A stretch of 43,737 nucleotides of DNA from a virus. Positions within the stretch are counted from its first letter, which is position 1. Every line of letters begins with the position of its first letter. Below the pieces are notes generated by a model that worked only from the letters and a program-made list of their open reading frames with translations, was not told the DNA's origin and ran no database searches. A program made the translations under genes and the position numbers. Positions 4,887-25,900 of the stretch are shown here, in pieces. The stretch is from the IMG/VR virus record IMGVR_UViG_3300010354_000172, positions 1 to 43,737 of that record. The stretch is one strand, 5' to 3'.

Positions 4887-4906
4887 ACCAAATATTCGCT
4901 TTTAAA

Positions 4907-4915
4907 TATTTATAG
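4907..4915 (-). promoter_or_regulatory. Late promoter CTATAAATA
   Basis: Contains the exact T4 late promoter core TATAAATA on the minus strand, about 20 nt before the ATG at 4886. It is the best match in the window and probably drives the modification cassette (3903-4886, 1760-3910, 1158-1763). Confidence 0.7.
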
Positions 4916-4923
4916 CGTCTACT

Positions 4924-7224
4924 TTAGAAGGTTCCTGCGTCAATTGTAATATTTTCAAGTGTTCTTACTCCATCAGAACAATTGATAACTTGAGATTGAC
5001 CTGCACAATCATTTATCCAAAGAGAACCAATTTCAATAGCTGCATAAGATGTGAATGTAATTTGTGGAGCATCTACTCCTGTCCCACCACCATCAGAAAT
5101 TTCTGATCCAAACTTGAATCTTGAATCTGCTTGTTCCCAAATAACGGCAGACTTTTTAGCTGATGTTTGATAGTAATTAAACAGAACACCTAAATCCCAA
5201 GTCGTTGTTGAAGATGGTGCATTTCCATCAACAACACCTAACTCAATCGTTCTGTCTTCAACTGTTATTGATGAAGTATTAACTTGAGTAGTATTTCCAT
5301 TAACATATAGATTTCCACTAACGGTAACATCATCCGCAAAGGTTACATCATTTGCAGATAATGTGGCAACTGTTGCTCCTGTGCTGGATTGAATGATATT
5401 TCCAGTAACTTGCAAATTACCCTTAACCTCAGTAAGAGTATTAGAGGTCATTGTGATGTTTGTGTTGCCATCACTTGCCTGAATATCATTACCATTAACT
5501 CTAATATCACCTGCAAAAGTTGTTAATGTATTCGAAGCAAGAGTAATATTTGTGCTACCATCTGATGCCTTAATATCATTACCAAATATTTGCAAATCGC
5601 CTGTAATTTTTACGTCACCAGTAGAAGGATTAAGTGAAAGTCCAGCGCCAACTCTTACAGTCTCGCCGTTTTGGCCAGCAAGAGTATCGACAAATGGAAC
5701 AAAAAAGTCGGCATTTGTGGAAGTTGATGTAGTATCAACTGTAATTGCTCTAGTTGCTGTACTAGCAGTACCTGTTAATGTTCCCTGAACAGTTACATTG
5801 CCCGTGAAATCCGCATGTTGTGTTGTAAATGTATTTGTTCCTGGGTTGTAGTAAATTCCATCATCAGTGTATACAGTTTCATTAGTTGGTGATCCATTAT
5901 GTGAGTTGACAAACGTTATATGATGTGTTGCATTTAAATCACTTGCAGTAACCGTTTTAACCTGATCTGCACTGGAAGCGTTACCTGAAAAAGCTCCGTA
6001 AAAATTAGTCGCAGATATTGCGGTATCACTAATCGTAACTCCAGTTCCAACGGCAAGGCGAATACCGCTTGCCATAGTTGTTGTACCAATTGCAACACCA
6101 TAGTTGAAAGCAAATGCATCTGTGGAGAAACCTAAGGTTCCATTTTTAAACCACATCAATTGCTTATAAGTATCGGGAAGTGTATTAATTCCAGATGCAG
6201 AAAAAGATACTAATGGAGTTCCGACTGTAGACGCAATTGCAACACCACCATGATTTGCTGTTGTATCATTTGATGCGTCTTGACCACCAACACTTGTTGT
6301 ATAACCTAAAACAATATCTTTATTACTAATAAAAACGTCTTGGCCAATTAAAGTTACAGTAGTTCCACCAATTGTAACATTTCCATTAACTGTTAAGTTA
6401 TTTTGAATTGTAACGAAATCATCAATAATCGTTTGCCCGCCTGCAGAATTTAATGTTAAGTTACCCGAAACAGTATCAATAACATTTGCGCCAGTGATGC
6501 CAATCTGAACTCCATCAGCAACTAAACCGGTAGCAAAAGTACCTATGCCAGAAAAATTAGTGTTTCTCCATCTTTTTCCACCGATGCCAATATCGTAAGT
6601 ATCATCAGCGTTTGGAACAAGGTTTGAAACAAATTCACCAACAACATTAATATTATCAGTGTCACCATCACCAATATTAATTGTGCCACCTTTAAAAGTT
6701 ACAACTCCAACAAATTCCGAATATCCACCAACGTGAAGATTTTGTTTTACGGTGAGATTTTTGGCAATTCCCATGCCACCATCAAGTTGAACCGCACCTG
6801 TATTTTCATTACCTAGTGTATTATCTGTTGTATCACTAAACGTTGTGATACCAGTGAATGTTGCATTATTTGAACCACTTGCCCAACTTAAATTTCCACT
6901 TCCATCATTTGTTAAAACTGAAGAAGGAGCTCCTTGAGATGCTGGAAAATAGTAAGTAACCGCTGCACCTACCGTTGCTGGTGCCGCAAGAGTAATAAAG
7001 TCACTTCCATTAGAAGTTCCCTCAACAAGATTTATGCCGCTTCCTGTTGAAGTGGTTTCTTTTGTCCAGTATCGATGTGAACCAAAAAATTTATTTGTTG
7101 ATGTCTGTGAAGAAACACCGACATATAAGTCGTAACTGTCAGTTGTAAAACCAGGTTCACCAGCCCTAAGACCAGGCAGATTAGTAAGCAGACCTCTTTT
7201 AAACTGTAAAACGGGTGCTGCCAT
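4924..7224 (-). CDS. Fibre-like virion protein with repeats, 766 aa
   Basis: The N-terminus (MAAPVLQFKRGLLTNLPGLRAGEPGFTTDSYDLYVG) is the short entry motif of many phage fibre proteins, resembling the N-terminal domain of the major tropism determinant family. The rest is low-complexity beta-rich sequence with repeating modules such as NDIKASDGSTNITLASNTLT, NDIQASDGNTNITMTSNTLT and LYVNGNTTQVNTSSITVEDRTIELG. It ends in ITIDAGTF, a tail shared with the next gene upstream. There are no catalytic motifs. A late-type promoter lies 24 nt upstream (7248-7255). A virion fibre or decoration role is inferred from the repeats and from the position after gp16. Confidence 0.8.
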   Translation of the reverse strand: MAAPVLQFKRGLLTNLPGLRAGEPGFTTDSYDLYVGVSSQTSTNKFFGSHRYWTKETTSTGSGINLVEGTSNGSDFITLAAPATVGAAVTYYFPASQGAPSSVLTNDGSGNLSWASGSNNATFTGITTFSDTTDNTLGNENTGAVQLDGGMGIAKNLTVKQNLHVGGYSEFVGVVTFKGGTINIGDGDTDNINVVGEFVSNLVPNADDTYDIGIGGKRWRNTNFSGIGTFATGLVADGVQIGITGANVIDTVSGNLTLNSAGGQTIIDDFVTIQNNLTVNGNVTIGGTTVTLIGQDVFISNKDIVLGYTTSVGGQDASNDTTANHGGVAIASTVGTPLVSFSASGINTLPDTYKQLMWFKNGTLGFSTDAFAFNYGVAIGTTTMASGIRLAVGTGVTISDTAISATNFYGAFSGNASSADQVKTVTASDLNATHHITFVNSHNGSPTNETVYTDDGIYYNPGTNTFTTQHADFTGNVTVQGTLTGTASTATRAITVDTTSTSTNADFFVPFVDTLAGQNGETVRVGAGLSLNPSTGDVKITGDLQIFGNDIKASDGSTNITLASNTLTTFAGDIRVNGNDIQASDGNTNITMTSNTLTEVKGNLQVTGNIIQSSTGATVATLSANDVTFADDVTVSGNLYVNGNTTQVNTSSITVEDRTIELGVVDGNAPSSTTTWDLGVLFNYYQTSAKKSAVIWEQADSRFKFGSEISDGGGTGVDAPQITFTSYAAIEIGSLWINDCAGQSQVINCSDGVRTLENITIDAGTF

Positions 7225-7247
7225 TTTATTCTATTTACACTTTTTTT

Positions 7248-7255
7248 TATTTATC
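7248..7255 (-). promoter_or_regulatory. Late-type promoter GATAAATA
   Basis: NATAAATA motif on the minus strand, 24 nt before the fibre-like gene start at 7224, followed by an A-rich leader. Confidence 0.55.
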
Positions 7256-7268
7256 TGATTAAGTTATT

Positions 7269-7601
7269 TTAAAACGTACCTGCATCGAGATCAATACGAT
7301 TATCCAAATCAATATCCAACTGATTATTGAAATCATCTGGTAATCCTGGTTGCGTTGTTTCTGTAGTTGAAGATGCACTTAATACGGCATCTGGATTAAC
7401 CGCAGTGTATTTTCCAGTTGAGGCATCGTACATAATAACATATTTGTCTGAAACGGAAGTTCCATCAAAATCTGATAAGTCGGAAAAAGACGCTGGCACT
7501 TGAATTCCTCCTACAGTAACACCAACTTCAAACGTTGGAGCTTGCTCTAATGTTGCGTATGTAATTGATGATTGTTCTAAAGTTACGTTATATTCGGTCA
7601 T
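7269..7601 (-). CDS. Putative structural protein, 110 aa, DAGTF tail
   Basis: A small beta-rich protein without Cys. It contains a segment seen in phage fibre-linker proteins (SFSDLSDFDGTSVSDKYVIMYDASTGKYTAVNPDAVL), in which DKYVIMYDASTGKY resembles a linker repeat, and ends in NRIDLDAGTF. The same DAGTF ending occurs on the adjacent 766-residue fibre-like protein. The start overlaps the stop of the upstream 110-residue gene by 4 nt, so translation is probably coupled. Probably a minor virion or fibre-associated protein; the family has no name I can give with confidence. Confidence 0.75.
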   Translation of the reverse strand: MTEYNVTLEQSSITYATLEQAPTFEVGVTVGGIQVPASFSDLSDFDGTSVSDKYVIMYDASTGKYTAVNPDAVLSASSTTETTQPGLPDDFNNQLDIDLDNRIDLDAGTF

Positions 7602-7930
7602 GCTGATACGGTGTCTTTTACAATAACTGTACCTTCAAAAACTTTAGTAATTGATGACCCACTGTTATTTGCAATAACCACATCGTAGTAGTTTCTTCCA
7701 GAATCTAACTGTGATGTAATTGTAGATCCCATTGATATTTTAATTTTGCCAGTTGCTGCTGTCACAGTTGTTGAAAATGATTTATATGAAGTTGCTGTTG
7801 GGTGCTTTTTTATTCTTGCTGTCGCAGTATATCCAGCTAAGGAGGCAACAGAATCATCAAAGTTTGTAAGATTAAAGGTTGCCTCAAAACTAGTCCCTTT
7901 ATCTATTGATAGATTGATTACTGCAGCCAT
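7598..7930 (-). CDS. Putative structural protein, Ig-like fold, 110 aa
   Basis: About 110 residues with the alternating pattern of a single beta-sandwich: INLSIDKGTSFEATFNLTNFDDSVASLAGYTATARIKKHP, then two further strand pairs ending in VFEGTVIVKDTVSA. This layout matches small phage Ig-like proteins beside tail or fibre genes. There are no catalytic residues, signal peptide or membrane segment. A late-type promoter at 7948-7955 lies 18 nt upstream, so this gene probably begins the transcript covering both 110-residue genes. The virion role is inferred. Confidence 0.75.
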   Translation of the reverse strand: MAAVINLSIDKGTSFEATFNLTNFDDSVASLAGYTATARIKKHPTATSYKSFSTTVTAATGKIKISMGSTITSQLDSGRNYYDVVIANNSGSSITKVFEGTVIVKDTVSA

Positions 7931-7946
7931 GACGTAAGTTTTTTAA

Positions 7947-8393
7947 CTATTTATCAAATTTTTGCTGTTTGAGCAATTTTGCCAATTCTGCCGTTGAACC
8001 TACAAAGAGAGCATTTGTAACATTTGAAGGTCCACCCGATTGTTTTTCCTCTTCAATATCTTTTAACTTCTTCTGAAGATCCATTAACTTATCTGTAGCG
8101 TCAGCAACGTTTTTAATAAGTTGACCAGCAACTTCGTATGCTCTTGGAGCTTCAGTTTCCATGGCAAGTTCAAGAATACCGTTTATAGCTTCTTGTCCCT
8201 TTTCTATAATTGAATAAAGATTGCCCCTTGTATATTCATAGTCTTTTTTAACATCATTTGAAGATTTTTTTTCGACTGATGAATCTGAAGGAACAATTTC
8301 ACATTCCGACGCAACTGCATTTTTTGGTGCAACAATGTCTGAATCAACATTGAATGCATCATTTAGACTGTCATACTTTTTTGTCATTTTCAT
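7947..8393 (-). CDS. gp16: Terminase small subunit, gp16-like, 148 aa
   Basis: Corresponds to T4 gp16, which regulates DNA packaging by the large terminase. The central helical region (YEYTRGNLYSIIEKGQEAINGILELAMETEAPRAYEVAGQLIKNV) and the C-terminal NALFVGSTAELAKLLKQ match the gp16 pattern; T4 has a similar VFMGSPTELMDEIG segment. T4 gp16 is 164 residues. It follows gp15 with 4 nt between, in T4 order 13-14-15-16. In T4 the large terminase gp17 comes next; here fibre and enzyme genes follow, and gp17 is not seen inside the window. Confidence 0.85.
   Translation of the reverse strand: MKMTKKYDSLNDAFNVDSDIVAPKNAVASECEIVPSDSSVEKKSSNDVKKDYEYTRGNLYSIIEKGQEAINGILELAMETEAPRAYEVAGQLIKNVADATDKLMDLQKKLKDIEEEKQSGGPSNVTNALFVGSTAELAKLLKQQKFDK
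7948..7955 (-). promoter_or_regulatory. Late-type promoter GATAAATA
   Basis: NATAAATA motif overlapping the last codon of gp16, 18 nt upstream of the 110-residue Ig-like gene start at 7930. Confidence 0.5.
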
Positions 8394-8397
8394 ACAA

Positions 8398-9402
8398 TCA
8401 ACTTAATGAACCACTAAATCCAAAATCATCTCCCAATTGAACCAAATCATTGTCTGATGGTGTAATTGGTTTAACTGCAGCTCCAGCAAGGTGAGGTGTT
8501 ATTTTTGTATTATCTTTTCCTCTTTCAACAGTTACCTTATTTCCAGATATGTTTGTAACAAAAACTTCTTCTCCCTCAATATCTAAGTAAGTTTTGTTTG
8601 TTATAGAGCTAGAGTCATTTACTGTGATAATTGTATCAGTCGTTGTAATATCACTAGAAAGATTTGTTAAAATTTGACCAGTATAGTTTTGTGTTGCTCT
8701 TGGCGAAACTGTATAAGACAAAGCCCTTGTTGTGTTATTTGTATCAGTTCCCGTAAGATAACTGACAGATGCACTCTTGATAATGTCTTTGGTAGCTGTG
8801 GATATTGGACCAAAGAGGTATGTTTTTGCAGTAAATCTTAAAGTATAAAGTAGAACTCTTCTTGTGGTAAAGTTTCCCTCATAATCATCTTGCATGGTTA
8901 TATTTTCTAAAACAATCGGTATGTCTCTTTTTTCATTAACACCATTTTCTACAAGAGTTACAGTTAAATTGTAAGATGGCTGAAAATAAGGAAGAATTTG
9001 CTCAACAATTTGCAGAGCATCATCATTAAGTTTTGACATGATGCTAAGTTCAAATTGCATGTTATATGGAACAGGCATGAATGCCTTTTTAATCACGGAA
9101 CCGTCTTCAGCATCCTTCACTGTGAACTGTTGTGTTACTGAAACTTTTCTACTTGAATCATAAGTAATTCCAGTAAATTCAAAAGACATTCTTGGAAGAG
9201 TGATTTGAACAGGCTTATTCAAATCTGGTGACTGCTCAAGTCTTGCTAAAAACTTCTGAGTGGGACCATATGCCAAAGGAACCTTCATTACATTTACAAT
9301 GTCATCTGCAGAATTTGTCTGCTTGATTGTAATATTATTGAATAAAGTTCCAAAAGCAATGATTGTTTTACGAAAAATTTCGTGATAAAAATACTCAAAC
9401 AT
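8398..9402 (-). CDS. gp15: Tail sheath stabiliser / tail completion protein gp15, 334 aa
   Basis: Matches T4 gp15, the ring that caps the contractile tail and joins it to the neck. Signature segments: N-terminal MFEYFYHEIFRKTIIAFGTLFNNI (T4 MFGYFYNSSFRRYATLMGDLF), and QIVEQILPYFQPSYNLTV, followed by KRDIPIVLENI. T4 gp15 is 272 residues; the extra length is at the C-terminus, where residues about 235-310 form a module (DITTTDTIITVNDSSSITNK, then EVFVTNISGNKVTVERG) also seen in the gp7-like and DUF4815 proteins here. It lies between gp14 and gp16 as in T4. Confidence 0.92.
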   Translation of the reverse strand: MFEYFYHEIFRKTIIAFGTLFNNITIKQTNSADDIVNVMKVPLAYGPTQKFLARLEQSPDLNKPVQITLPRMSFEFTGITYDSSRKVSVTQQFTVKDAEDGSVIKKAFMPVPYNMQFELSIMSKLNDDALQIVEQILPYFQPSYNLTVTLVENGVNEKRDIPIVLENITMQDDYEGNFTTRRVLLYTLRFTAKTYLFGPISTATKDIIKSASVSYLTGTDTNNTTRALSYTVSPRATQNYTGQILTNLSSDITTTDTIITVNDSSSITNKTYLDIEGEEVFVTNISGNKVTVERGKDNTKITPHLAGAAVKPITPSDNDLVQLGDDFGFSGSLS

Positions 9403-9439
9403 TTTAGGCCCTACTTACCCGTTAAAATATATTTAGTCT

Positions 9440-10858
9440 TTATACTTGCCCAAATGGATTTCGTTCATTAAAATCCAAGATTGCATCTGCTTCTATTTCA
9501 ATTTGTTGATTTGATGCATATCCATCTGTGACAATTTCTTCACCAACAAGTCTTATCATATAACTTGCGGATGATGCTGAACCAACAACAGTTTCTCCTG
9601 CTATAAAATCACCACTTGCCGAAGCAACTTGTAGTTCATAGTTATTGGAATTCCAAGCACGAACTCTTGCAGTTGTTCCACTTGTTGATCCAGTAACAAT
9701 TTCATTGAAGACAAAAGTTCCTATTCCGGCGGTATATGGAGAACTTATAGTAATTGTTGGAGGTGTTGTATATCCTGCCCCAGCATTTATAATTTGAATC
9801 GCAGTGATTGTTCCAGCAGCACTTACAATTGCGGTTGCGGCCGCGGAAACTGTAGAAATACCTGTAATTGTGACTGAAGGTGTAGAAGTATAACCAGAAC
9901 CTGGATTTGTGACTGTTATAATTCCAACAACACCACTATCAATCAGAGAAGTTGCCGCTGCTCCACTTCCTCCACCACCAATAAACCGAATTCCAGGAGA
10001 AACTGTATATCCTGCACCAGGATTTATTATTCTTACTGCTTGAACTGATTGAGCCGATGGGTTTACATTATCATTACAAACAACAATTCCACTAATCATC
10101 AATGCGGTTGCAATACCAGTAATTCCACCTGCTGGTGCTGATGATATGGCAACTCTAGGAATGCTGGTGTATCCACCGCCTCTATTAATGACTGTGATAC
10201 TTCTAATTCCACCATTAACAATTGATGTTTGTGCAGTTGCAGTTACACCAATACCAACCATTGTAAGTTTCTTGATATTTCCTACAGCAACATATCCATC
10301 ATCTAGATTTGTTCCGATTCCAGTGAGAACATCATCAATTTCGCCAACACCTGTAGCAATAACATCATTTTGCTCCATTCTGAAGAGTTCACACTTCAAC
10401 AGATAAACATAATTTTTTCTAAGTTGATAGAATGGTTTTTCATGCTCAACATACTTGATTTCAAAGATACGATCTCCTAATGGAAAATAAATTAAATCGC
10501 CCTCTTTTGGTCGTGTTGATAATTTAATCGAAGGTCTATCTTTCAATAGTGGAGAAATATAAGTTTCAAATCGTTCTTTTGATATGATTAAATTGACTTC
10601 GTTTGTTGCTTGAATTCCAAATTTTGATAGAATAACACTGTTATCTGAGTATCCCTCATAATTATCAATGTATGCTTCTATTGGGTGGGCTTGATTAAAC
10701 GCTGATTGGATAACTTCTTTAATAATCGTCTTTTCGGTCAAATATTTTCTGGGTATGTAATAAACCTCAACGCCATATATCCTCAACTGCTCATTTATTA
10801 GATCTTGAATAAGACCTTGTTCTGATTGAGAGCCTTGTAGAAAAAAGGGATTTAGCAT
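9440..10858 (-). CDS. gp14: Neck protein gp14 with inserted GxGYT repeats, 472 aa
   Basis: The N-terminal half (MLNPFFLQGSQSEQGLIQDL, IYGVEVYYIPRKYLTEKTI) and the DLIYFPLGDRIFEIKYVEHEKPFYQLRKNYVYLLKCELF region are the conserved body of T4-type neck protein gp14. The C-terminal NQQIEIEADAILDFNERNPFG is also characteristic. T4 gp14 is 256 residues. Here about 190 extra residues (roughly 195-385) form four repeats with cores RGGGYTSIP, PGAGYTVSP, PGSGYTSTP and AGAGYTTPP. These are probably surface-exposed beta modules inserted into the conserved body. It is followed closely by gp15 and preceded by gp13 with a 5-nt gap. Confidence 0.93.
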   Translation of the reverse strand: MLNPFFLQGSQSEQGLIQDLINEQLRIYGVEVYYIPRKYLTEKTIIKEVIQSAFNQAHPIEAYIDNYEGYSDNSVILSKFGIQATNEVNLIISKERFETYISPLLKDRPSIKLSTRPKEGDLIYFPLGDRIFEIKYVEHEKPFYQLRKNYVYLLKCELFRMEQNDVIATGVGEIDDVLTGIGTNLDDGYVAVGNIKKLTMVGIGVTATAQTSIVNGGIRSITVINRGGGYTSIPRVAISSAPAGGITGIATALMISGIVVCNDNVNPSAQSVQAVRIINPGAGYTVSPGIRFIGGGGSGAAATSLIDSGVVGIITVTNPGSGYTSTPSVTITGISTVSAAATAIVSAAGTITAIQIINAGAGYTTPPTITISSPYTAGIGTFVFNEIVTGSTSGTTARVRAWNSNNYELQVASASGDFIAGETVVGSASSASYMIRLVGEEIVTDGYASNQQIEIEADAILDFNERNPFGQV

Positions 10859-10863
10859 TTGAA

Positions 10864-11706
10864 TTACCCAATCATGTCAAATGGAGGAAGTTCATAAGTG
10901 TTTGACATTTTCTCCATTAAAATATCTAACTCTCTTTGGGCATCATCATAAATTTGTCTGCCATTCAATTCTACACCACCAGGAAGTTTAACTCCTTGGA
11001 ATTTAATTAAATTCTGTCCCCATTGTTTTTTAACCAACAATGTTACATATTGTTTGAGAAATGAATCATTCCAAACATCAGAGTACCTGTTAGGATCTAA
11101 TACTGAATAACAATCAATAATGAAGTAATCGTTAGCCCTAACAGTGTTCCAATCAATGTCCAGATACAATCTGTCTTGCCTTTTATTATACCTAATTTGC
11201 TTTTGTGTAGTTAGAAGAAAGTTAATATCTTCAAGATATGTTTTAACCATAGCATAAGATAAAAGTTCTGTAGCACCCCAATAATAAATGTCGTTAAGGA
11301 ACAACTGATATTTTACACTAAACATATTACTAGAAATTGCATTAGAACCATCAAAATGAAATATTTTGGTTACTCCTATGACTGAGTTTGGAATTCTCAA
11401 ATAGTTTGAATTCTCATAGTACGTAAAGGTTGTTGCAGTACCAGTGATTGATTCTGTAACTGATGTTGTAGCAATACCAACTCCAGAAGGTGGTTTTCCT
11501 TTCCCCCTATCAATATCTTCTTGTGTAATTTTGTATTTGAAAAGTGCTGGATAAACACCATCAAAATGACGCTCTTGAAAGAACTGCACGGCATCATCGA
11601 TAATGTCATCAACTTGCTCATCAGCAACGTTAATTTCTAAAACTGGCGCACCCAGTTTCCTTTTTGCATAATCAATTAATTCTTGCCTAGTAGATGGTTG
11701 CGCCAT
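10864..11706 (-). CDS. gp13: Neck protein gp13, 280 aa
   Basis: Matches T4-type gp13, which with gp14 forms the head-proximal neck and lets the filled head join the tail. The start TRQELIDYAKRKLGAPVLEINVADEQVDDIIDDAVQFFQERHFDGVYPALFKYKIT is the conserved N-terminus of this family, and T4 gp13 has the same RxLGAPVVEIEV pattern. Length is near the 309 residues of T4. A late-type promoter at 11728-11735 lies 22 nt upstream, so gp13-gp14-gp15-gp16 probably form one late transcript. Confidence 0.93.
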   Translation of the reverse strand: MAQPSTRQELIDYAKRKLGAPVLEINVADEQVDDIIDDAVQFFQERHFDGVYPALFKYKITQEDIDRGKGKPPSGVGIATTSVTESITGTATTFTYYENSNYLRIPNSVIGVTKIFHFDGSNAISSNMFSVKYQLFLNDIYYWGATELLSYAMVKTYLEDINFLLTTQKQIRYNKRQDRLYLDIDWNTVRANDYFIIDCYSVLDPNRYSDVWNDSFLKQYVTLLVKKQWGQNLIKFQGVKLPGGVELNGRQIYDDAQRELDILMEKMSNTYELPPFDMIG

Positions 11707-11727
11707 TTATATGAGACCTTTTTTAAG

Positions 11728-11735
11728 TATTTATT
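11728..11735 (-). promoter_or_regulatory. Late-type promoter AATAAATA
   Basis: NATAAATA motif 22 nt upstream of gp13, overlapping the 3' end of the 64-residue gene. Confidence 0.5.
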
Positions 11736-11925
11736 CTAGACTAAAACTTTTTAAACTTAAATCAGAAACTACCTCTTGTTGTTTAAAATAAAGTTTGATG
11801 TAACATTTGCAAATATTCTTGAGAGATTCAATATCATCACACATATCCACCTCTCTAGAAAGTTTTTCATATTCAAACAATTTAGAAAAACTCTCTAAAT
11901 TTATTTCATCAGGATTTATTTTCAT
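11731..11925 (-). CDS. Hypothetical small protein, 64 aa
   Basis: A short, mostly helical acidic protein (MKINPDEINLESFSKLFEYE, ending KSFSLE) with three Cys in the middle (MCDD and KNICKCYIK). It overlaps the upstream 76-residue gene by 17 nt, which supports coupled translation and a real gene. Small proteins are commonly found at this place, between the baseplate block and gp13, in cyanophages. I cannot name a function; no domain is visible. Confidence 0.65.
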   Translation of the reverse strand: MKINPDEINLESFSKLFEYEKLSREVDMCDDIESLKNICKCYIKLYFKQQEVVSDLSLKSFSLE

Positions 11926-12139
11926 TGATTAAACTCCTCAACAGTGATTTAATTTCATCAAGATCATTTTTCATACTAGAAACTTCAGATTCAATATCCT
12001 CAATTTTTTGTTTTTCTTTTAGTCTTGACTCCTTACGCATTTTATACTCATCATATTCATTTTTGTTTGTATTAATGATTGCATTTGTTTGAGGGTCTCT
12101 GACTAAATCATCATGACCTTGAACTTTTAAAAATTCCAT
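11909..12139 (-). CDS. Small coiled-coil virion-associated protein, 76 aa
   Basis: The N-terminus MEFLKVQGHDDLVRDPQTNAIINTNKNEYDEY is the pattern of a small conserved cyanophage protein found just before gp13 (a segment like LVRDPxTNxIINT). The rest is a charged helix with coiled-coil heptads (IEDIESEVSSMKNDLDEIKSLLRSL). The start lies 7 nt after the stop of the DUF4815 gene. Likely a late virion assembly or structural component; the exact function is unknown. Confidence 0.78.
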   Translation of the reverse strand: MEFLKVQGHDDLVRDPQTNAIINTNKNEYDEYKMRKESRLKEKQKIEDIESEVSSMKNDLDEIKSLLRSLINENKS

Positions 12140-12146
12140 ATTTATT
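12139..12146 (-). promoter_or_regulatory. Possible late-type motif AATAAATA
   Basis: An exact NATAAATA match, but it touches the ATG at 12139. It could only drive that gene as a leaderless transcript; it could instead serve the 64-residue gene or gp13. It may be chance. Confidence 0.25.
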
Positions 12147-15100
12147 CTACGCTAAAGCAATAACTCTTAGTTCTTGAATTTTTGGTGGATAAGTCTGATC
12201 TGTAGATGTTAATACTAATTTAATTCTATAGGTTTTAAATGCTGGTAAATCATTTACCGTAAAGATATTTTCAGAAAACTGATCGGGTGAATCAATTGTT
12301 GAATTATGTTTTGGAACAAATTTATCAGGTAATCCACTATTATTACTTTCCAAAATGATGTCACCATTAACATCTAGATTATCATATCCAGGGAAAGCAG
12401 TAAAGATAGGTTCAAAGTTTTGATTATTGCTAATGGCATAGAATGCTCTAATTTCAGAATTTAAGTTTACATGTCCTAAAAGTAGAACTTTTAATGATGT
12501 GGCTGGATTTTGGAGTACTACTTCTCTTGTTACATATGTACATGCATGAGGGTCTGCTCTTAAAGAATTTACTCTACTATCTGTCAAATAATTATCAATA
12601 GGATTATTGACTCTGTTTGATGTAAGAATGGCACTCATTCTTTGAGTATCAATAATAGGACTTAAGCGATCATCAGAACTATTTAATGATACGCTAATAT
12701 TTAATGAGCGGTCTCCTTGCTGATTAATAGTGTCACTATTTGAGGTTTCATTTATTCTGGATGCTACAATTCTTGGGGTACTTAAATAATTCGGAGTATT
12801 CAAAGTAATTGTTTCATAACCTTGGTCGATAAATGGAATATCAGAACCTTGTCCAGAACCATTATTCAAACTTGTTCCTGAAATTGTCTTTAATGTAGCT
12901 GATACATTTGTTCCTGGAACAGTAACATTTTGAATCATCGGTGTTATGATTTCAAATGACATATTTTGAGTTGCCTTGATTGCAAATCCACCTACTGACT
13001 TATTTTCATTAAAGTGAAGTTTGGGGAAACTTGTGTCAGTACTTCTATCAACACCATCTGTGGACATGTTAACTTTAACATTATATGAATCAAAGGTGAT
13101 TGGTTTTGAAACAGTTACATCACTTAAAAGATGAGTTTTGTTAACTCTTCTGAGAGAAACTCCACCAAGTTCATATTTGTAAACTGGTGTTCCTATTTCA
13201 TAAGAACTTGGATTAGAACCTCTTGTTATGCCATTGATAGATCCAGAGGAGACTGAAGTGTAAGAAATAACTTCATTACCTAGCAGTAAATATCCTGGAT
13301 TTGTTGTGCCAACTCCCACATTTTCAAATGAAGAGAATCTTGAACTATCTTCAACTAGAATAGATGAAGTAGAATTAGAAGTATATGCCGTTGTCAGTTT
13401 TGTGGGAATTATGTCAGATTCAACTCCAGAAATTGTCACTCTGTTTGTTTCATGATGCATACCATGATTTAAATGATTTACGACAAAATGTAATCCATCA
13501 GTTACCGTATCAATTCTTAATGGTACAACATTGCCTCCCGAATTGGCATTAAAATCAGTAGTAATTCCAAGACTATTTGTATAACGTAATGTTTTTCCAG
13601 CACCAACTACAAAATCACCCTGAACATTGTCTAAGATTAATTCATTGGTACTTGCAATCGAAACAACAGAAAGTCTTAGATTTAATCCTACGGAATCATT
13701 TCCAATTGTTGTAATACCCAATACATCGCCAACTTGATATCCAGAACCAGAATTTGCAACAGTTGCTGCAATCGCTACACCATCCTCAATGGTAACATTT
13801 GCGGTTAAATTCCTACCATTACTTACGATATTAGTTAAACTTACACCATCATATGTGTATGAACCAGAAGATGGAGTATATCCTATTCCAGCGTTGATAA
13901 TACTTAAGTTGCCGGTTGCAATTCCTGCTTTTCCGATATAATTACCTGTGGCATTAGTTCCTGCTTGTGTGACAGTATTTCCAAATTGCAATCCATTTGC
14001 ATCTCCAAAAGATTCAGTTAACGTGGAACCTAATCCAACTCTAATTTGTTTAGAACTTAATATGATAGAATTTGGTTGTAAAGTTGCAACTTGTCCATTA
14101 CCTTCACTGAGAATTGGATTATATATTTGTAAACTACCACTTTGAACAAACTGGGCACGATATAGAGTAAATTTAAGGTCTTCCCACTGACTTGCATCCC
14201 ATGTTGAAGCATTTTGTGACTTGAACAATGAACCTAAGTATGGTTGTTGTGAAATAAACTCTTGAGTTAGAATGTCAGATTCACCTACTCTAGATACAAA
14301 AGTTCTATATTTTGTTGACCAAGATGCAAGACAAATTGCATATTCTATTCCACCACCTTCCAAATATACTGGCGCTTTAAATGTTATTCGAGTTGGTACG
14401 CTTCCATCAGTCGAAGTAATTATATCTTCAGGGCTTACAATAACTTCAGAAAAAGGTAAAACTTTTTGAGTTGGAGTTCCATTTGCCATTGTCCGAATTT
14501 GGAATGTCAATGGAATATTCATATCATCTTTTGTTTGCATGAAAATATCACAACTTGTAATAAAGACACCTGTTGGATCTAAAACTTGGAATGATTGTGC
14601 AAGAGGATCATACCACTCACTCCAAGTTGACGTAGATGAAGAAATTACCTGAGAACCGACTAATTGAGCACCAAGAAATCTAGACGTAGCTCGTTGTTCT
14701 CTGCTGTGTAATTGTTCAAGTCTAGCATTTCTAACTGAAATGATATTTTCTTGAACAGTTTCAAGAGTTCCGGATGATTTAAAGGTCTCTTGACCTATGG
14801 TTTCTGCTAGATTTTTATCATCATTTTTATTATCTGTTATTCTAAAAACTTTTTCTCCAGTGGAAAATCTTGGATTAGTACTAACATTTGGATTTGGTAT
14901 AAAAACACTACCAATTAAGTTTGCACCAATGTCGGATACTAATCTAAGATTTGTAATTCTGGCGATAGCACCACTTGTTTGTCCAACTAAAATCATTCCA
15001 GGTTCTACATATCCACTAAATTCTCCTTGTGCTTGTAATGATAGTGAATATGTATCAACATTTAAAATAGTTGATGTCGATGAATACTCTGATGGTAATA

Positions 15101-17774
15101 ATACATTGCTAGCACCTGCAGAAAGTTGTACCGTTCCAACAGTATCGGCATATGTTTCTAGTGATGTTGCTGCAACTTGTGAAAGATATGGATTATTTTT
15201 GAAAACTCTTGTCGGAGCATTGTATGGTCCTTCTTGATGGTTTGCTACAGCAACTCTAAATCTGATTGATGCGTTTGAGGATTCGAACGCAGGTGCTAAA
15301 CCAGTTCTTTGAACAGTTCCGACAACAGTTTCACCAACTTGGAATGTTCCAGAAGACATAGATATTTCTAAAAGTTTAGGAACACAATACTTAGTTACAT
15401 TTACTCCATCAAAGAAAGCATAAAGTTGAGTCAGTGGTTTTAATTTTTTAGAAACAAATTGAATGTTTCTTGAACGCATAAATGCAATTACATCTCTACT
15501 TACAACTCTATCCCCAGCAGAAGTGTTATCAAACTGCATTGTTACTTGAGTCCTAACACCCTCTCTAGTTTGAACACCAATTTGAGTTGTATTTAAATAC
15601 GTATCTTGAATTACATCTGTTTGTTGAAACCAGACCCTCTCGCGGGCCCGCCCGCGCCCGTGGCCGCGGTCGTCGATAATCCAAGCGGCAGATGATGTTC
15701 GAGTATTAGTTGAGATTGATTGTTGTGTTCCAGTCCAGAATGTCTGCCAAGAATCCCAAACAATTGGGGTAAGTCCAGTTTGTGGATCAAGACCCTGTGT
15801 TCTTGCTAAATCTGCAACAGTTTGTGAATAATTACCTTCAACATTAATAATTTTTGCTTCAATGCGTGCAGTATCTACCCAAGTATCTGATGCGGGAGTT
15901 AACTCCATCGTTGCTTGCCAAAAACTTACTAAAAATGGAGTAATGCTTTCCGTTCTTGTTGCAAATGTTTGTTTTAACCACTCAACTTCATTATAATCTA
16001 AAGTAATAATATCAGCACTTCTTTTTATATTAATACCCTCAGGATTTGAAAATTCTAAATCTGCATCTGGAGCAAGATTTGAAACTGGCCCAAACATCAA
16101 ATCTATGGAATTTGTATAATGAGCTGGTCTGAGTAAATTATTTTGAATATCTAAACTATTTTTAATTTTTTGATCGGAATCTTGAGTTAGAAATGAAGTA
16201 AAGTTATCAACAAAAAATCCAGATTTAAATCTATTTAATCCTTCTGAGTCTGGAACGAATAGTGAAGAAGTTTTATTCTCCAATAATGAAAGTGATGTAT
16301 AATATTCAAGATTTTTAATTCTATCCTCTAATTTTTTAATATCGGACATTCTGTATCCTTTATTTTCAAGAAAAGATACAGTAGCTAAATTTACTGAATT
16401 TAGATATGGTGGTAAAGTAACATTTGCAATTTCTATCGCATCTTCAATTGTATTTGGTTTCTTAGGAGAATCTGATGGATCTCCATACTGAACTTGAATT
16501 TGCCCCTCTTTAGACAAATAAATTCTGTCTAGTCTTCCCAAATAATATGAATAATCTAATTTGATTGCTTCATCGCTTGCTAAAATGTTAGATACTGAAT
16601 TTTGAAGTAAAGAAAAATTTCTTCCTAAAAATTCAAAAGGAGATCTTGCGTTTAAATTTGCAGTATAATTTGAAACTTTTGGTCTAACATCTAATATATC
16701 TGTGTTTCTATATCCAGCTATGACTTGTATATCTTTAGTATAATCAAATGTATCATATGAATTTTTAGTTATAATGTCTCCTTCTGCAGAGTCAAAATAA
16801 GCATTTGAAAAATAAATTTTTAAACGTCTTGATGGTTTGTTTACATTTGATTTGCGCTCTATATAACCATGATCATAAAAAGTTCCTTTTTGACCATTGT
16901 TAAATCCATAATTTGATGCAATATTTTTACTTGGTGTATCTAAAACACTTACAATTGCCGTAACTTTTGATTCCTCAAATGTAATTGATTCACCCTCTTT
17001 GAAAGATAATTGGTTTCTTGGCAAATATGTAATTTGCGTGTCATTTATTTTTTCAGCAACAATAGCAACTGCTCCAGATGTAGAACCAACTATTTTTTCC
17101 CCAATAATCAAATCTGTTGTTTTTCCAGTTGTCCCAGAAATATTTGTAAGAGATACTTTTGGAGCTGAAGCATCAGATGTATCAGATGACTCATAAACAC
17201 CAAACACACTTAAAATATCACCAGCGTTTAAAGAAATTTTTTCATCTTGAACTCTAGTTCCATATGGATAGTTTCCATATGCTAATCCATCATTTAAAGT
17301 AGTAGCACCAATACCAGAAGCACTTATCGAAGACTTGTCAATTATTAATGTATTGACTCTATTTTTTTTCTTAACCTTTGCTTTTGCTTTTAAATTCAGT
17401 AGAGTTGTTGTTAAAGTTGCTCCAGTGTCATCAGCACCCAAATTGTTAATTTGAAGAACTGTAGAGCCAGAAGTTAAAGAAAATCTATCTGATGTAAGAA
17501 CCTCTGTATTTCCATCTGAACGAACCAGATAGTATCTTTCCTCGTCAAATGGTAGGAAAACTTGATTTTGGTCTGCAGTAATGGGTGAGGATAGTTTATT
17601 GCCGCTTATATTTACTGTATATGACTTTCTAATCGGAATTTCAGATGTATTTAAAGATACATCTGAAATGAATGTTTGAGGCATTACAGTATAAAGAGTT
17701 TCATCATATGCTTCATTTACAGAAGTCTTAAGAACTTTTAAATCTGTTACTGATAGATTTGATGATACAGGCAA
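12147..17774 (-). CDS. DUF4815-type structural protein, downstream part after in-frame stop
   Basis: A very long beta-rich virion protein of at least 1875 residues in the same frame as the DUF4815 gene at 18393-19736. The frame stays open from 17775 up to the TAA at 18393-18395, and I find no ATG, GTG or TTG codon between them; the codon at 17774 is TTG and the first ATG comes 30 codons later. So this is best read as the C-terminal three quarters of one protein spanning 12147-19736. It contains an EIANVTLPPYLNSVNLATVSF segment, GxGYT repeats (INAGIGYTPS, NSGSGYQVGD), an EVISYTSVSSGSINGITRG module and an Arg-rich patch at 15641-15670. Its position between gp8 and gp13 is that of the T4 gp9-gp12 group. 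Baseplate or tail-fibre attachment is inferred. Confidence 0.8.
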   Translation of the reverse strand: MPVSSNLSVTDLKVLKTSVNEAYDETLYTVMPQTFISDVSLNTSEIPIRKSYTVNISGNKLSSPITADQNQVFLPFDEERYYLVRSDGNTEVLTSDRFSLTSGSTVLQINNLGADDTGATLTTTLLNLKAKAKVKKKNRVNTLIIDKSSISASGIGATTLNDGLAYGNYPYGTRVQDEKISLNAGDILSVFGVYESSDTSDASAPKVSLTNISGTTGKTTDLIIGEKIVGSTSGAVAIVAEKINDTQITYLPRNQLSFKEGESITFEESKVTAIVSVLDTPSKNIASNYGFNNGQKGTFYDHGYIERKSNVNKPSRRLKIYFSNAYFDSAEGDIITKNSYDTFDYTKDIQVIAGYRNTDILDVRPKVSNYTANLNARSPFEFLGRNFSLLQNSVSNILASDEAIKLDYSYYLGRLDRIYLSKEGQIQVQYGDPSDSPKKPNTIEDAIEIANVTLPPYLNSVNLATVSFLENKGYRMSDIKKLEDRIKNLEYYTSLSLLENKTSSLFVPDSEGLNRFKSGFFVDNFTSFLTQDSDQKIKNSLDIQNNLLRPAHYTNSIDLMFGPVSNLAPDADLEFSNPEGINIKRSADIITLDYNEVEWLKQTFATRTESITPFLVSFWQATMELTPASDTWVDTARIEAKIINVEGNYSQTVADLARTQGLDPQTGLTPIVWDSWQTFWTGTQQSISTNTRTSSAAWIIDDRGHGRGRARERVWFQQTDVIQDTYLNTTQIGVQTREGVRTQVTMQFDNTSAGDRVVSRDVIAFMRSRNIQFVSKKLKPLTQLYAFFDGVNVTKYCVPKLLEISMSSGTFQVGETVVGTVQRTGLAPAFESSNASIRFRVAVANHQEGPYNAPTRVFKNNPYLSQVAATSLETYADTVGTVQLSAGASNVLLPSEYSSTSTILNVDTYSLSLQAQGEFSGYVEPGMILVGQTSGAIARITNLRLVSDIGANLIGSVFIPNPNVSTNPRFSTGEKVFRITDNKNDDKNLAETIGQETFKSSGTLETVQENIISVRNARLEQLHSREQRATSRFLGAQLVGSQVISSSTSTWSEWYDPLAQSFQVLDPTGVFITSCDIFMQTKDDMNIPLTFQIRTMANGTPTQKVLPFSEVIVSPEDIITSTDGSVPTRITFKAPVYLEGGGIEYAICLASWSTKYRTFVSRVGESDILTQEFISQQPYLGSLFKSQNASTWDASQWEDLKFTLYRAQFVQSGSLQIYNPILSEGNGQVATLQPNSIILSSKQIRVGLGSTLTESFGDANGLQFGNTVTQAGTNATGNYIGKAGIATGNLSIINAGIGYTPSSGSYTYDGVSLTNIVSNGRNLTANVTIEDGVAIAATVANSGSGYQVGDVLGITTIGNDSVGLNLRLSVVSIASTNELILDNVQGDFVVGAGKTLRYTNSLGITTDFNANSGGNVVPLRIDTVTDGLHFVVNHLNHGMHHETNRVTISGVESDIIPTKLTTAYTSNSTSSILVEDSSRFSSFENVGVGTTNPGYLLLGNEVISYTSVSSGSINGITRGSNPSSYEIGTPVYKYELGGVSLRRVNKTHLLSDVTVSKPITFDSYNVKVNMSTDGVDRSTDTSFPKLHFNENKSVGGFAIKATQNMSFEIITPMIQNVTVPGTNVSATLKTISGTSLNNGSGQGSDIPFIDQGYETITLNTPNYLSTPRIVASRINETSNSDTINQQGDRSLNISVSLNSSDDRLSPIIDTQRMSAILTSNRVNNPIDNYLTDSRVNSLRADPHACTYVTREVVLQNPATSLKVLLLGHVNLNSEIRAFYAISNNQNFEPIFTAFPGYDNLDVNGDIILESNNSGLPDKFVPKHNSTIDSPDQFSENIFTVNDLPAFKTYRIKLVLTSTDQTYPPKIQELRVIALA

Positions 17775-18392
17775 AGCGCCACTGGCGACACCATCAACTG
17801 TAGTGATACCTGCAACAACAATTGAAGTTGAACCAACACTTACAACTCTAGAATAAATTGGAACGGGTAAATTTAATCCGGTAAATGTAACTAGGTCGTT
17901 TCTCTTTACTACTTTTCCTGGAAAAAGTGGATTTAAACTTATGATTGTGCTTTGCCCTGTTGATGCATCATATGGGGTTACAGATGCAACACCAACATTA
18001 AAAGATGATTCTTGAATAGTGTCTGCTGTAAAAGTCTTAGCAAATCCAATTTCGCCTAAACTTGGCCCACCATAAACTGATTTGACGTTTGATAGTCCAT
18101 ATGCAGTTACTGCTATTGCAACTCTTGTATTTGTAGATTCATCTTCATTGAAAATTAGTGGTTCATTTGCTACAAAATCACCTTTCTTTTCATAGACTGT
18201 TAATGCTGTTCCTGCAGATACTGAACTTCTGAGGAAAGCCGTACTTCCACTATATTTTCCCTTGATGTAAGTTGGAATTGGAAGAGTTATTGGTTGATTT
18301 ATTGTAATTTCTGAGAATGTTTGAATATCGAAAAGAGAAACATCCCACTGATTGATTTTTTGATTTGAAGTTGAATACGAACCAGACTCTAA
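17775..18392 (-). other. Open in-frame coding continuation between the two DUF4815 parts
   Basis: This 618-bp stretch has no annotated start but is one open frame. After the TAA it reads LESGSYSTSNQKINQWDVSL, then continues through FDIQTFSEITINQPITLPIP to VASGALPVSSN, and joins the downstream part without shift. Composition matches the flanks. It is coding sequence of the same protein, not an intergenic spacer. Confidence 0.85.
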
Positions 18393-18395
18393 TTA
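18393..18395 (-). other. In-frame TAA interrupting the DUF4815 gene
   Basis: The codons are GTT TAT GAT TTT TAA TTA GAG TCT. The reading frame is unchanged on both sides over the full 12147-19736 span (2530 codons), so this single ochre codon is the only break. It may be a point mutation, a sequence error, or a natural stop that is read through. Confidence 0.9.
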
Positions 18396-19736
18396 AAAAT
18401 CATAAACTCTAGCAAGACCAATTTCTTTACCTGGTGCGGTTACAGAATTAACTCCAACTCTAGTATCACGTAAACTTAAAATGTAAGTATTTCCAATTCC
18501 AATTGTTGGAGCACCAAAAACTCTATTTAATTTTAGAGTTGTTGAGGTGTTATAAGGTATTAATTGATTTGTTAATGTTTTTGTTGTTCTTGGTTTAGGA
18601 GCATCAACATATGTTGGATAAATTACATCAACTTCATATCCTTTGACAAAAGCTTTTCCAGGAGATACTTCATATAATGCTAAGTCTTCTGATGGTGAAG
18701 AACCGGAATATGTGGTTTGTCCATTTTGAAAAACGCCATTATTTCCAACGTTATCATTCAGAGATTCTCTTATGGATACAGTAAATGGCTTAACTGTGTA
18801 ATCTCCAGATTCTGAATAAGTTCTACGAGCAAACTCTTCTGCTAATAAATTATATTCTGTTACTTTTGTTTTGCCAGTTAAAACACCATCTCGAATGACG
18901 CCAAGTTCTATAAAGTTAGAATCATTATAATCATCTATATCTTTAAACGATAATGAACAAGTTATTTTAAGCCTATCAGCTCCTGGGGCAGAATAATTAT
19001 TAAACCCTTTAGAGTTGTCATTTAAAGTTTCATCTTCATCAGAATTGATGATTTCTTCCTCTACTCTAAGACCTATTCGACCTGTTGGAGTATTTTTATA
19101 CTGATCTAGAATTAATGTTTCATCTAAAACATTAACAAATGTTCCCCTTACAAAATAAACACCATTTGAAATGGAAAATGCAGCAGCAAGTGATGATGAA
19201 TTAACTCCAATTGTCGATGCAACTGATTCTCCAGATGGAATATATGGATTATTATCTGGGCCAGAAACAACATCAACGTCTAAAGATAAAGATTCACCAT
19301 CTAAAAATACTTTTTGCTCGCTGTCTACTACTCCGGAAGAAATATAAGAAACATATATTGTTGTATTTCCCCTTTCAGAATTCTCAGATTTTAAAATTTT
19401 ATTGACAATAGCAGTCACCCCAGATACTAATCCGATGACTCTTCTACCAACAAATTGCTCAACATAAAAATCAACAGGAATACCTAAATGAGTATTGTTA
19501 AGTTCTACTGCATAATAGGATCTACTATACGCAGTATTTCCAGGTATAACTTTAGCACCTTCTTTAAAGAAATGCTGACCAAATCTTGAAAGTTGGTTTT
19601 GTAGGATTGACTGAAGACCAGTTAGTTCTCTTGCCTGAACTGGATAACCAGGCTTGAAAAGAACTTTGTGATAATTTTTGTCAGGATCAAAATCATCAAA
19701 GTATGGCGAAATGTTGAGATTAGTTTGTTGAGCCAT
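18393..19736 (-). CDS. DUF4815 structural protein, N-terminal part, 447 aa
   Basis: The N-terminus (LNISPYFDDFDPDKNYHKVLFKPGYPVQARELTGLQSILQNQLSRFGQHFF) is the DUF4815 domain signature found in large structural proteins of T4-like cyanophages and related phages. The domain continues to about residue 440 (VSPGKAFVKGYEVDVIYPTYVDAPKPRTT) and ends at KEIGLARVYDF followed by TAA. In relatives, as I recall them, the protein does not end here but goes on with a LESGSY-like segment, which is exactly what follows the TAA in frame. It starts 6 nt after the gp8 stop, so it belongs to the gp8 transcript. Without readthrough, only this 447-residue fragment would be made. Confidence 0.88.
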   Translation of the reverse strand: MAQQTNLNISPYFDDFDPDKNYHKVLFKPGYPVQARELTGLQSILQNQLSRFGQHFFKEGAKVIPGNTAYSRSYYAVELNNTHLGIPVDFYVEQFVGRRVIGLVSGVTAIVNKILKSENSERGNTTIYVSYISSGVVDSEQKVFLDGESLSLDVDVVSGPDNNPYIPSGESVASTIGVNSSSLAAAFSISNGVYFVRGTFVNVLDETLILDQYKNTPTGRIGLRVEEEIINSDEDETLNDNSKGFNNYSAPGADRLKITCSLSFKDIDDYNDSNFIELGVIRDGVLTGKTKVTEYNLLAEEFARRTYSESGDYTVKPFTVSIRESLNDNVGNNGVFQNGQTTYSGSSPSEDLALYEVSPGKAFVKGYEVDVIYPTYVDAPKPRTTKTLTNQLIPYNTSTTLKLNRVFGAPTIGIGNTYILSLRDTRVGVNSVTAPGKEIGLARVYDF

Positions 19737-19742
19737 AGTTAG

Positions 19743-21293
19743 TTAGAATTGCAATATAACTTTAATGTCTTCTTTTTGGTTGTTGGAACGAGTGATAGCT
19801 GGTCTGTTGTCAATGTAAATTATATTTCCAGAGTATTTTTTAACTTCTGGATTTGCCAACCCATTTGTAAAAGACTGACCAAGATAATATGTTCTATTAT
19901 TTATTGAGGTAGAGAACCCAGTAAATGATGTACTTATTGATAAATTGATACTCCCACCTACAACTGTAAGACTTCCGCCAGATGATGGGGAAGATGAAAA
20001 TCTTGTTAAGTCATAACCATATACGGGAGTTGTCTGTGCAGTTCCAACTGTATTAAATCCTGCAAGAGTTCTATCTTGCCAGTATTTTAAAACTCCAGTC
20101 ACATTGTCATAACTTATTACCTTTCCAGCAGCAGTGACTCCTGTTCCAACTGTTTGTGTTACAATTGAATCTGCGGTAAAGGTTGCTGTGCTATATCCAG
20201 TTCCTGTTAATCTAAGCGCATAAACTGCACTTGCTTTGTCAATTGATAGAAGTTGTGATGAGTTATAAGCTTGAGGATTTTCAATTAAACCAATTCTTGA
20301 AATTTCATTTCCAACTATAAAATCTGGATTTTCGGAATCATTTTCAATTCTTGAATATAGAAGAACATTACGTGCTCCAAGTTCATTATAAATGTCATAT
20401 CCATGTCCTCCAGATGGTGGAATAATCACATCGAGAAGTGGTAAAGAAGTAGGAGTTGGTACTCCACCAGCGATTAAATCAACATTACCAAATGTATATC
20501 CTGACCCTTGATTTGTAACTGTTACTGAATCAACTCTTTGGTCATTATCGATTGTTATCGTACACTCCGCTCCAGTTCCATCTCCTTTGATTGGAACTCT
20601 AGCATATGTTTTATTTGCAGTTCCTACTCCAACACCTCTATTCTTTATGACGACAATTTTGATGCCACCATCAACTGCATTTTGACGTACACTAGCATTT
20701 TCATCAGAAGTTTCCCAATTTGTTGGAGTTGGAATGTAATCAATGGAATCAAACTTGACTGCTTCTGCTGGTTTGATTGTATAAAGATATTTCCAAATAT
20801 ACCCATCTCCACTAGTTCCCGCCGCTCTGGGTTCAAGATCTACAAATGTTGGTTCATCTAATGATGGTTTTCCTTCTGGAGTTTCTGGTGTAGTTCCGTT
20901 TTGCAAACAAATATAAACTCTAAAATCGCCATTTATTACATAATAATTTGCCGAATATAATGAAGAAACTGCTGAGTTTGCTGGGGGATTAGCAACACTA
21001 TAGTCGTGACGATAATAGTCATAGGTTGTTCCAGAAGACCATACGTTCTTCTTCACCATTAATTTAACATCCGAAGATGTTATTTTTTTCAATGCAATTA
21101 TAGTATCCCAGGTATCCCACTCGGAACTAAAATTATCTGTTGGACTCGGCGGACTATCATTCCAATCACTTTTAATTGTCGTGGGGTTAGGTAAACCTAC
21201 AAAAGAATAATAAGAATTTGTAGAGGTTGTTACTCCAGCTACAAATTTTTTCGCATTTAATATTCTAATTTTATCAGTTATAATTGCAGCCAT
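19743..21293 (-). CDS. gp8: Baseplate wedge protein gp8, 516 aa
   Basis: Matches T4 gp8, a dimeric wedge subunit. Diagnostic segments are the N-terminal start on IITDKIRILNAKKFV, a central GDGYIWKYLYTIKPAEAVKF (T4 GDGYVWEYLFEIPP) and the C-terminal IIYIDNRPAITRSNNQKEDIKVILQF (T4 MIYMENRPPIIMAMDQTEEINILFTF). T4 gp8 is 334 residues; the additional length is in the middle (about residues 215-480), including a GSGYTFGNVDL repeat of the same GxGYT type as in gp14. The promoter GATAAATA lies 18 nt upstream. Confidence 0.9.
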   Translation of the reverse strand: MAAIITDKIRILNAKKFVAGVTTSTNSYYSFVGLPNPTTIKSDWNDSPPSPTDNFSSEWDTWDTIIALKKITSSDVKLMVKKNVWSSGTTYDYYRHDYSVANPPANSAVSSLYSANYYVINGDFRVYICLQNGTTPETPEGKPSLDEPTFVDLEPRAAGTSGDGYIWKYLYTIKPAEAVKFDSIDYIPTPTNWETSDENASVRQNAVDGGIKIVVIKNRGVGVGTANKTYARVPIKGDGTGAECTITIDNDQRVDSVTVTNQGSGYTFGNVDLIAGGVPTPTSLPLLDVIIPPSGGHGYDIYNELGARNVLLYSRIENDSENPDFIVGNEISRIGLIENPQAYNSSQLLSIDKASAVYALRLTGTGYSTATFTADSIVTQTVGTGVTAAGKVISYDNVTGVLKYWQDRTLAGFNTVGTAQTTPVYGYDLTRFSSSPSSGGSLTVVGGSINLSISTSFTGFSTSINNRTYYLGQSFTNGLANPEVKKYSGNIIYIDNRPAITRSNNQKEDIKVILQF

Positions 21294-22918: not shown

Positions 22919-22926
22919 TATTTATC
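22919..22926 (-). promoter_or_regulatory. Late-type promoter GATAAATA
   Basis: NATAAATA motif overlapping the stop codon of the giant gp7-like gene, 35 nt upstream of the fibre-like gene start at 22884. Confidence 0.5.
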
Positions 22927-25900
22927 CCGTGTAATTATCAAACTTTAATCTATTGGTTCTCAAAATATAATCAGATGTATTTATTCCAACCAATCCATAT
23001 TTTGCATAAGATGTAAAAGTATTAATTCCAACTCTTGGCGAAGTGTTAACCTTACCCCAACTAAAGTCACCATAATAACTTAGTACTGTGTAGACCAAAA
23101 TATTTTCATTTGCCAAGTCTATTGCAGATTTTTTATCAAAGGTTATGGTTGTCAAATCAAAAGTATCTAAAGTTGATGAGAAGTTTGTTTGTCCAGCACC
23201 AGAAACTCTAACAGTAACTCTATTAACATAAGTAAGTCCGACACCAGTAACTTCAGTTTGTAATATGTTAGATTCATATACCTGATACAAACCGTCTACA
23301 AAATTTGTAGAAATGCCAATAACTGAATCATCATTTCCATAACTAAATCTTTCTTTTCCGGAAGAAATTCCAAAATTAGATTTATTGATGACGAAGAAAT
23401 CTCCAGTAGAAATGCCACTTACAGTAACAGCAACTCCTGTAATTGTTGACGATCTTAGATGTGAATTTGATGGAATATGGAAATCAAGAATCATTTTATC
23501 CATTGAAACTACACTAGTTCCAATTCCAACATCAAATCCATTTGTAAAGGCAACTCCTACTATAATTCCAGAATCTCCAGAATACGTAGAAACTCCAATA
23601 ATTTCTTGAGTTGTAGTTGGTGGTGAAATTAAGACTGCAGGAGGGTTGGTGTTTGTATATCCAACTCCAGGACTTACAACTTGAATGTTGGTGATTATTC
23701 CATCAGAAGAAATTACAGGGTTTGCTGTTGCTCTTGTTGTACCAATTCCAACTGGATAGTCAATAACAACCTGACAAGTTGTATAACCAACTCCACCATC
23801 CGAAATAACAATACTTGTAATTGTTCCTGCTGCTGAAACAACTGCTGTAGCAGCTGCGGCAACTTTTGTTTGTTGGGAAACTATTGTAATTTTGTTCTGA
23901 TGTTCTAGATTTTCACCTTCATTTTGTGGGAAGAAGAAGGGACGAACGTTTTCCACATAAATCGTGGTTGAACCAATTCCCAAAGATGTAATTATATTTG
24001 TTGTTGGGAAAACACTGGGTTCATAAGATTCTCTATCTTTTGTTATAACTTTATTTTCTATAATTAAGTCTTCAGTTTGTTTGCAGAGTGTAACAGCTCT
24101 GAGAACTTCACTATCTTCAATTAATCCAGGGCCATAATAAACGTTTGTATCAACTGAACTTGAAGAATTAATATCAGTAATTACTCTTTTATCCTGCTGT
24201 AAGAAACTCTTTTGATTTAAAGAATCTCTATAGTTAAGAGTTAATGTATCTCCAGGTTGAACTACATTTGTAACTTCTTTTGGTAGAATATCAATTCCAC
24301 TTGTTCCTTTATAGAAGAAGAACTTCAGGTTATCATCTTTTCTTGGTGCTTCCTTAAATGTAATTGTGCTTCCACCTTTAAAGGTATAAGAAACACCAGG
24401 AACTTGTAAAACATCATTGATAAAGATTACAACTACGTCTTCAACTTTCACCAGAGAACCATACTTAGATTGAATTGAAACTGGAACTCCTGAACGAGTA
24501 ATTGGGAATGCTTTTCTAACTCCATCAAAAAGACTTGAGAAATTATCTAGGACTTCAAGCTCACCAATAGACCAAGCTGAGAATAAATCAGTTTGAACTT
24601 CTTGAACTTCAAGTTGAAATTCTCTGAAGTTTGCACTGGATGTTGTTGGAATTCCAGTCAGCCCTCCAGATGGTATAGTCAAAGTATGATTTACACCATA
24701 TCCATAACCCAAATCTACTAGTGAAAATGCAATTACACTTGAACCTTGACCAACTGTTATATCAACTTTTGCTTGAGTTCCACCTCCACCTAGACTACTT
24801 TGACTGTAGATCAATGGAATATTTGAATATGGAAGAGGAGCATCGATTATAACGTATGGTGGATTGTTCTGACTAAATCCAGAACCTGGATTTGTAACTG
24901 CAATGCTTACAATATGACCATTACTGACCACAGCGGTTCCAATAAATTGAAGATTTGGAGTTCCTACGGTTGACGATGCGACTGCAACACGAACTGTTTG
25001 AACACCTACTCTATATCCAGAACCACTATTGCCGATGCTTACGGAGGAAATTGTTCCTGCAATTGAAACAACCGCAGTGCCACCAGCACTTACAAGAGGT
25101 TGATAACCAAATCCCATTGTTGACCCAACAGATACAATAATTCCTCCTGTGGGTAAACTCAGAGCATTTGGATCGTATGATTGTGCGCTAGGAGTTCCGG
25201 TAAATGTAATCGATGTAATTCCAGATACTTCACTTAATGTATAATCATAGTTTAATCCTTTACCCTGAACAATATTGTTAATCAGAATAAATGCATTATT
25301 TGTTGCAATACCAACAACATCAGAACCTCCTGATTTCAGAGTATATGTGTTGCGACTTGCGGTAAAGTTCTGAGATATATCATCAAAAATGTAATTTTTT
25401 GCATATGCTTCTTCTGTTCCATTTTTAGCACCTGAATGCATGAAAACTCTTCCGCTGAAACTTGAAGAAGTAGTAATACCTTCCCAATCTCTAAATGGAA
25501 CTGGATCTGTTATAGAGCCAATTGGATTTCTTCCGGGAGGTGGGTCCGCAAAGGTAATGATATTTTCTACAATATTGTAATTACCAGAAATTCTTGTTAT
25601 CTTTGCTCCAGTGTCGTGTCCAGCAAGAACCGTTCCCATTTCAGCACGTGCAACTTGAATTGCATTAGTAGATCCAATTCCCACACCAATAATTTTCATA
25701 ATTTCATTGTCAACTTTTATAAGATTCCCACTAAAGAATGAAGTAATTCCCGTAAAATAGATTAAATCTTGTGTTATTGGCGCTTCAGCTGCAAGTGATG
25801 ATGTTACTGAAGTTGCAACAATTGGAGACTGCACTAAATTATCAAGAGAAATCAATACTTTTTGATTTTGTTTTTTCGAAACTATGCTATGCGATGTTCC

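Follow-up and report, generated by a model that had tools for sequence, protein, structure and literature searches.

The window analyzed here is a complete 43,737-base virus record (IMG/VR IMGVR_UViG_3300010354_000172), which is a fragment judged by its size and content. On the minus strand, a frame of 2529 codons extends from an ATG at 19736 to a TAG at 12147-12149, and translation revealed a single internal stop, a TAA at 18393-18395 (codon 448), followed by the residues LESGSYSTSNQ. An open frame of the length of 12147-19736 is not due to chance. The gene belongs to the DUF4815/phrog_358 virion structural family (VrlC/VriC-like structural protein), and both of its halves match the PF16075 (DUF4815) profile (5e-35 and 4.5e-27) as well as phrog_358 (1.9e-169 and E 0). 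The phrog_358 profile runs on across the TAA, with positions 1-434 found in the N-terminal 447 codons (18396-19736), which hold the start of DUF4815, and positions 441-2055 in the remaining 2081 codons (12147-18392), which lie in the same frame. Downstream of the TAA, the first in-frame start codon is a TTG at 17774 (codon 655) and the second an ATG at 17684, leaving 206 codons devoid of ATG, GTG or TTG. The preliminary description of this stretch had given the open frame, its one interruption and the start-free segment in the same way.

The DUF4815 gene is located directly downstream of gp7 and gp8, as expected for the cyanophage family, and the other structural operon genes of the window are intact. 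Six bases following the gp8 TAA (19737-19742) part gp8 from the DUF4815 gene, and the two genes are in the same frame. The window also contains a very large gp7-like baseplate gene (22922-35629), whose product of 4,235 aa has a YHYH domain (PF14240) spanning residues 1235-1333.

A second contig, IMGVR_UViG_3300010370_000444, aligns over all of its 16,309 bases to window positions 4411-20719, with four substitutions (7163, 9706, 14622 and 18394) and no gaps. Site 18394 falls in the middle of the TAA, where the second contig reads TCA (Ser), keeping the frame open. All four differences are nonsynonymous (window/second contig: A/V, N/D, W/C and */S, respectively), a pattern closer to unselected noise than to circulating polymorphism, although four sites are few. 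Homologues most often share the window's N at 9706, and some of them have its W at 14622. With no clearly odd window residue at these two of the three sites other than 18394, the contig is not visibly error-rich. When the variable base was left open in a pattern scan, IMGVR_UViG_3300010370_000444 was the only second contig recovered, and a scan with a pattern from the gp7 region found no further near-identical contigs. The second contig goes unnamed in an estuarine virome study (PMC8546989).

Alignment to DUF4815 homologues, as the preliminary description had suggested, gave the same picture at greater distance. A stop at codon 448 is absent from all 191 further homologous loci aligned over it (a set in which some contigs are counted twice). 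The residues are A (88), R (53), K (19), S (8), H (6), Y (5), V (5), D (2), N (2), E (1) and L (1), with one gap, and the three closest relatives (~75% identical) have Tyr. The flanking ARVYDF and LESGSY segments are well conserved and the residue between them varies freely; codon 448 is unconstrained, so that a sense codon is ordinary at this position. A degenerate DNA motif containing the TAA had no match among 2.9 million viral contigs (IMG/VR), while a control motif that allowed any codon, and was slightly longer than the TAA motif, had at least 120. Among the control matches listed, 80 of 80 loci were homologous and all had sense codons. By these comparisons of sequence, the TAA is a single-base nonsense difference private to the window contig.

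Because the near-identical contig and every related phage checked are free of a stop at this site, the TAA is most likely an error or a chance mutation. One substitution suffices to create it, so that splitting the gene takes only one base; nonsense codons are the outcome of ~5% of random substitutions in the DUF4815 gene and of 12% of C>A/G>T ones. We consider it probable that one wrong base in the consensus of a metagenomic assembly accounts for the TAA. That base would have entered the contig through a damaged template molecule or through an error in the reads or their assembly, and the virus itself would encode one uninterrupted DUF4815 structural protein of ~2,500 residues, normally translated. 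If the ancestral codon was the sense one, the substitution at 18394 may reflect a guanine-oxidation artefact (G:C to T:A). Counting against an error are the rarity, per base, of Illumina consensus errors and the lack of visible error-richness in the window contig.

The TAA could instead be a real nonsense allele, which we regard as possible but appreciably less probable. Some genomes of the population would then carry the TAA and be defective, or be kept by coinfection, or one packaged mutant would have been assembled. Four differing sites in 16.3 kb between contigs of the same virus make some real variation plausible, and a change of one base, of a kind that yields nonsense in one of twenty random cases, is all that is needed. 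Such an allele, however, forfeits 82% of the gene and should be purged, since every relative checked keeps the gene open across the site, and the TAA occurs in no other contig. From the Ser codon of the near-identical contig and the stop-free homologues, we infer that the base at 18394 is most likely an error rather than a real allele.

Both of these origins, a lethal nonsense mutation and a sequence error, had been offered in the preliminary description, and both stand, with error favored; its third reading, a stop that is read through, is not supported, given that the near-identical contig has TCA and that no homologue has a stop at the site. Readthrough or a TAA suppressor would yield a short 447-aa product together with the full-length protein, and the downstream frame is indeed open and conserved and has no early start codon. 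Nevertheless, we find this very improbable. Programmed readthrough lacks support from conservation, as even the near-identical contig does not share the stop, nor does any of the homologous loci. TAA is also the commonest ordinary terminator in the window operon and ends most of the neighboring genes, whose products a general TAA suppressor would lengthen. ARAGORN and Rfam identified no tRNA in the window, and hence no suppressor tRNA, and Rfam no known RNA element, the window being one piece of a genome that is probably much longer. Shuffled versions of the 120 bases 3' of the stop fold just as well (z 0.09), a stimulatory RNA structure not being required in every case of programmed readthrough. 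The phage recoding documented in PMC9523058 is of TAG (to Gln) and TGA (to Trp). Reassignment of the stop codon throughout the phage finds no support in the window genes either: many recoded stops would be expected in late genes, and apart from codon 448 the window's structural genes have no internal stop, the further in-frame stops for which a search had been proposed being absent from them. That a cyanophage subpopulation has a real, partly read-through TAA giving two virion protein sizes, with Ser in a sister strain, is more improbable still.

Two adjacent genes parted at codon 448 are about as improbable as such a subpopulation: some relatives (L176, L137 and L088) do have a natural split in this family, but it falls near residue 1,700 and comes with a new ATG, while no relative is split at codon 448, 206 codons without a start follow the stop, a terminator-like site is absent and promoter-like sites are not in excess. 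No homologue ends at codon 448, the finding that would have made this two genes according to the preliminary description, and a gene boundary there was rejected. DUF4815/phrog_358 occurs as two genes in L176 (1787-9250), L137 (1030-9174) and L088 (3914-12018), and also in L195, L172, L186 and L171. Counted on the window protein, the break in the split relatives lies close to residue 1,700, and the C-terminal gene (~820-845 aa) has its own ATG. These natural splits show where the family breaks into two genes, which is not codon 448. In contig L047, the DUF4815 match shifts frame near residue 630; L047 and L045 are 99.9% identical over 7,897 ungapped bases.

We therefore rank a consensus error first and a real nonsense allele second, and regard programmed readthrough and a two-gene arrangement as unsupported. 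The split made by the TAA carries little biological weight, although automatic annotation of the record would wrongly yield two proteins. When a lone striking stop is encountered in a metagenomic contig, near-identical contigs should be compared before recoding is invoked.

Among known systems, phages with reassigned stops (code 15, TAG to Gln; TGA to Trp) are similar in having an in-frame stop in a structural gene. Their genomes, however, have many recoded codons each, together with suppressor tRNAs, whereas the window has a single internal TAA, uses TAA as its usual terminator and has no tRNA in the contig. In gene order and best matches, the window corresponds to T4-like cyanophages. The DUF4815 gene comes after gp7 (baseplate wedge initiator) and gp8 (baseplate wedge) both in the window and in the Synechococcus phages SynMITS9220M01 and S-SM2, with an identical spacing of six bases between gp8 and the DUF4815 gene. 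The VrlC/VriC-annotated genes SynMITS9220M01_085 and SSM2_099 (S-SM2) are of the same family as the window gene over its whole length. Each isolate has a single uninterrupted CDS of ~7.6 kb, annotated as structural protein or as VrlC. DUF4815 proteins do extend beyond codon 448, as the preliminary description had stated; the window gene differs from these isolate homologues only in its private TAA.
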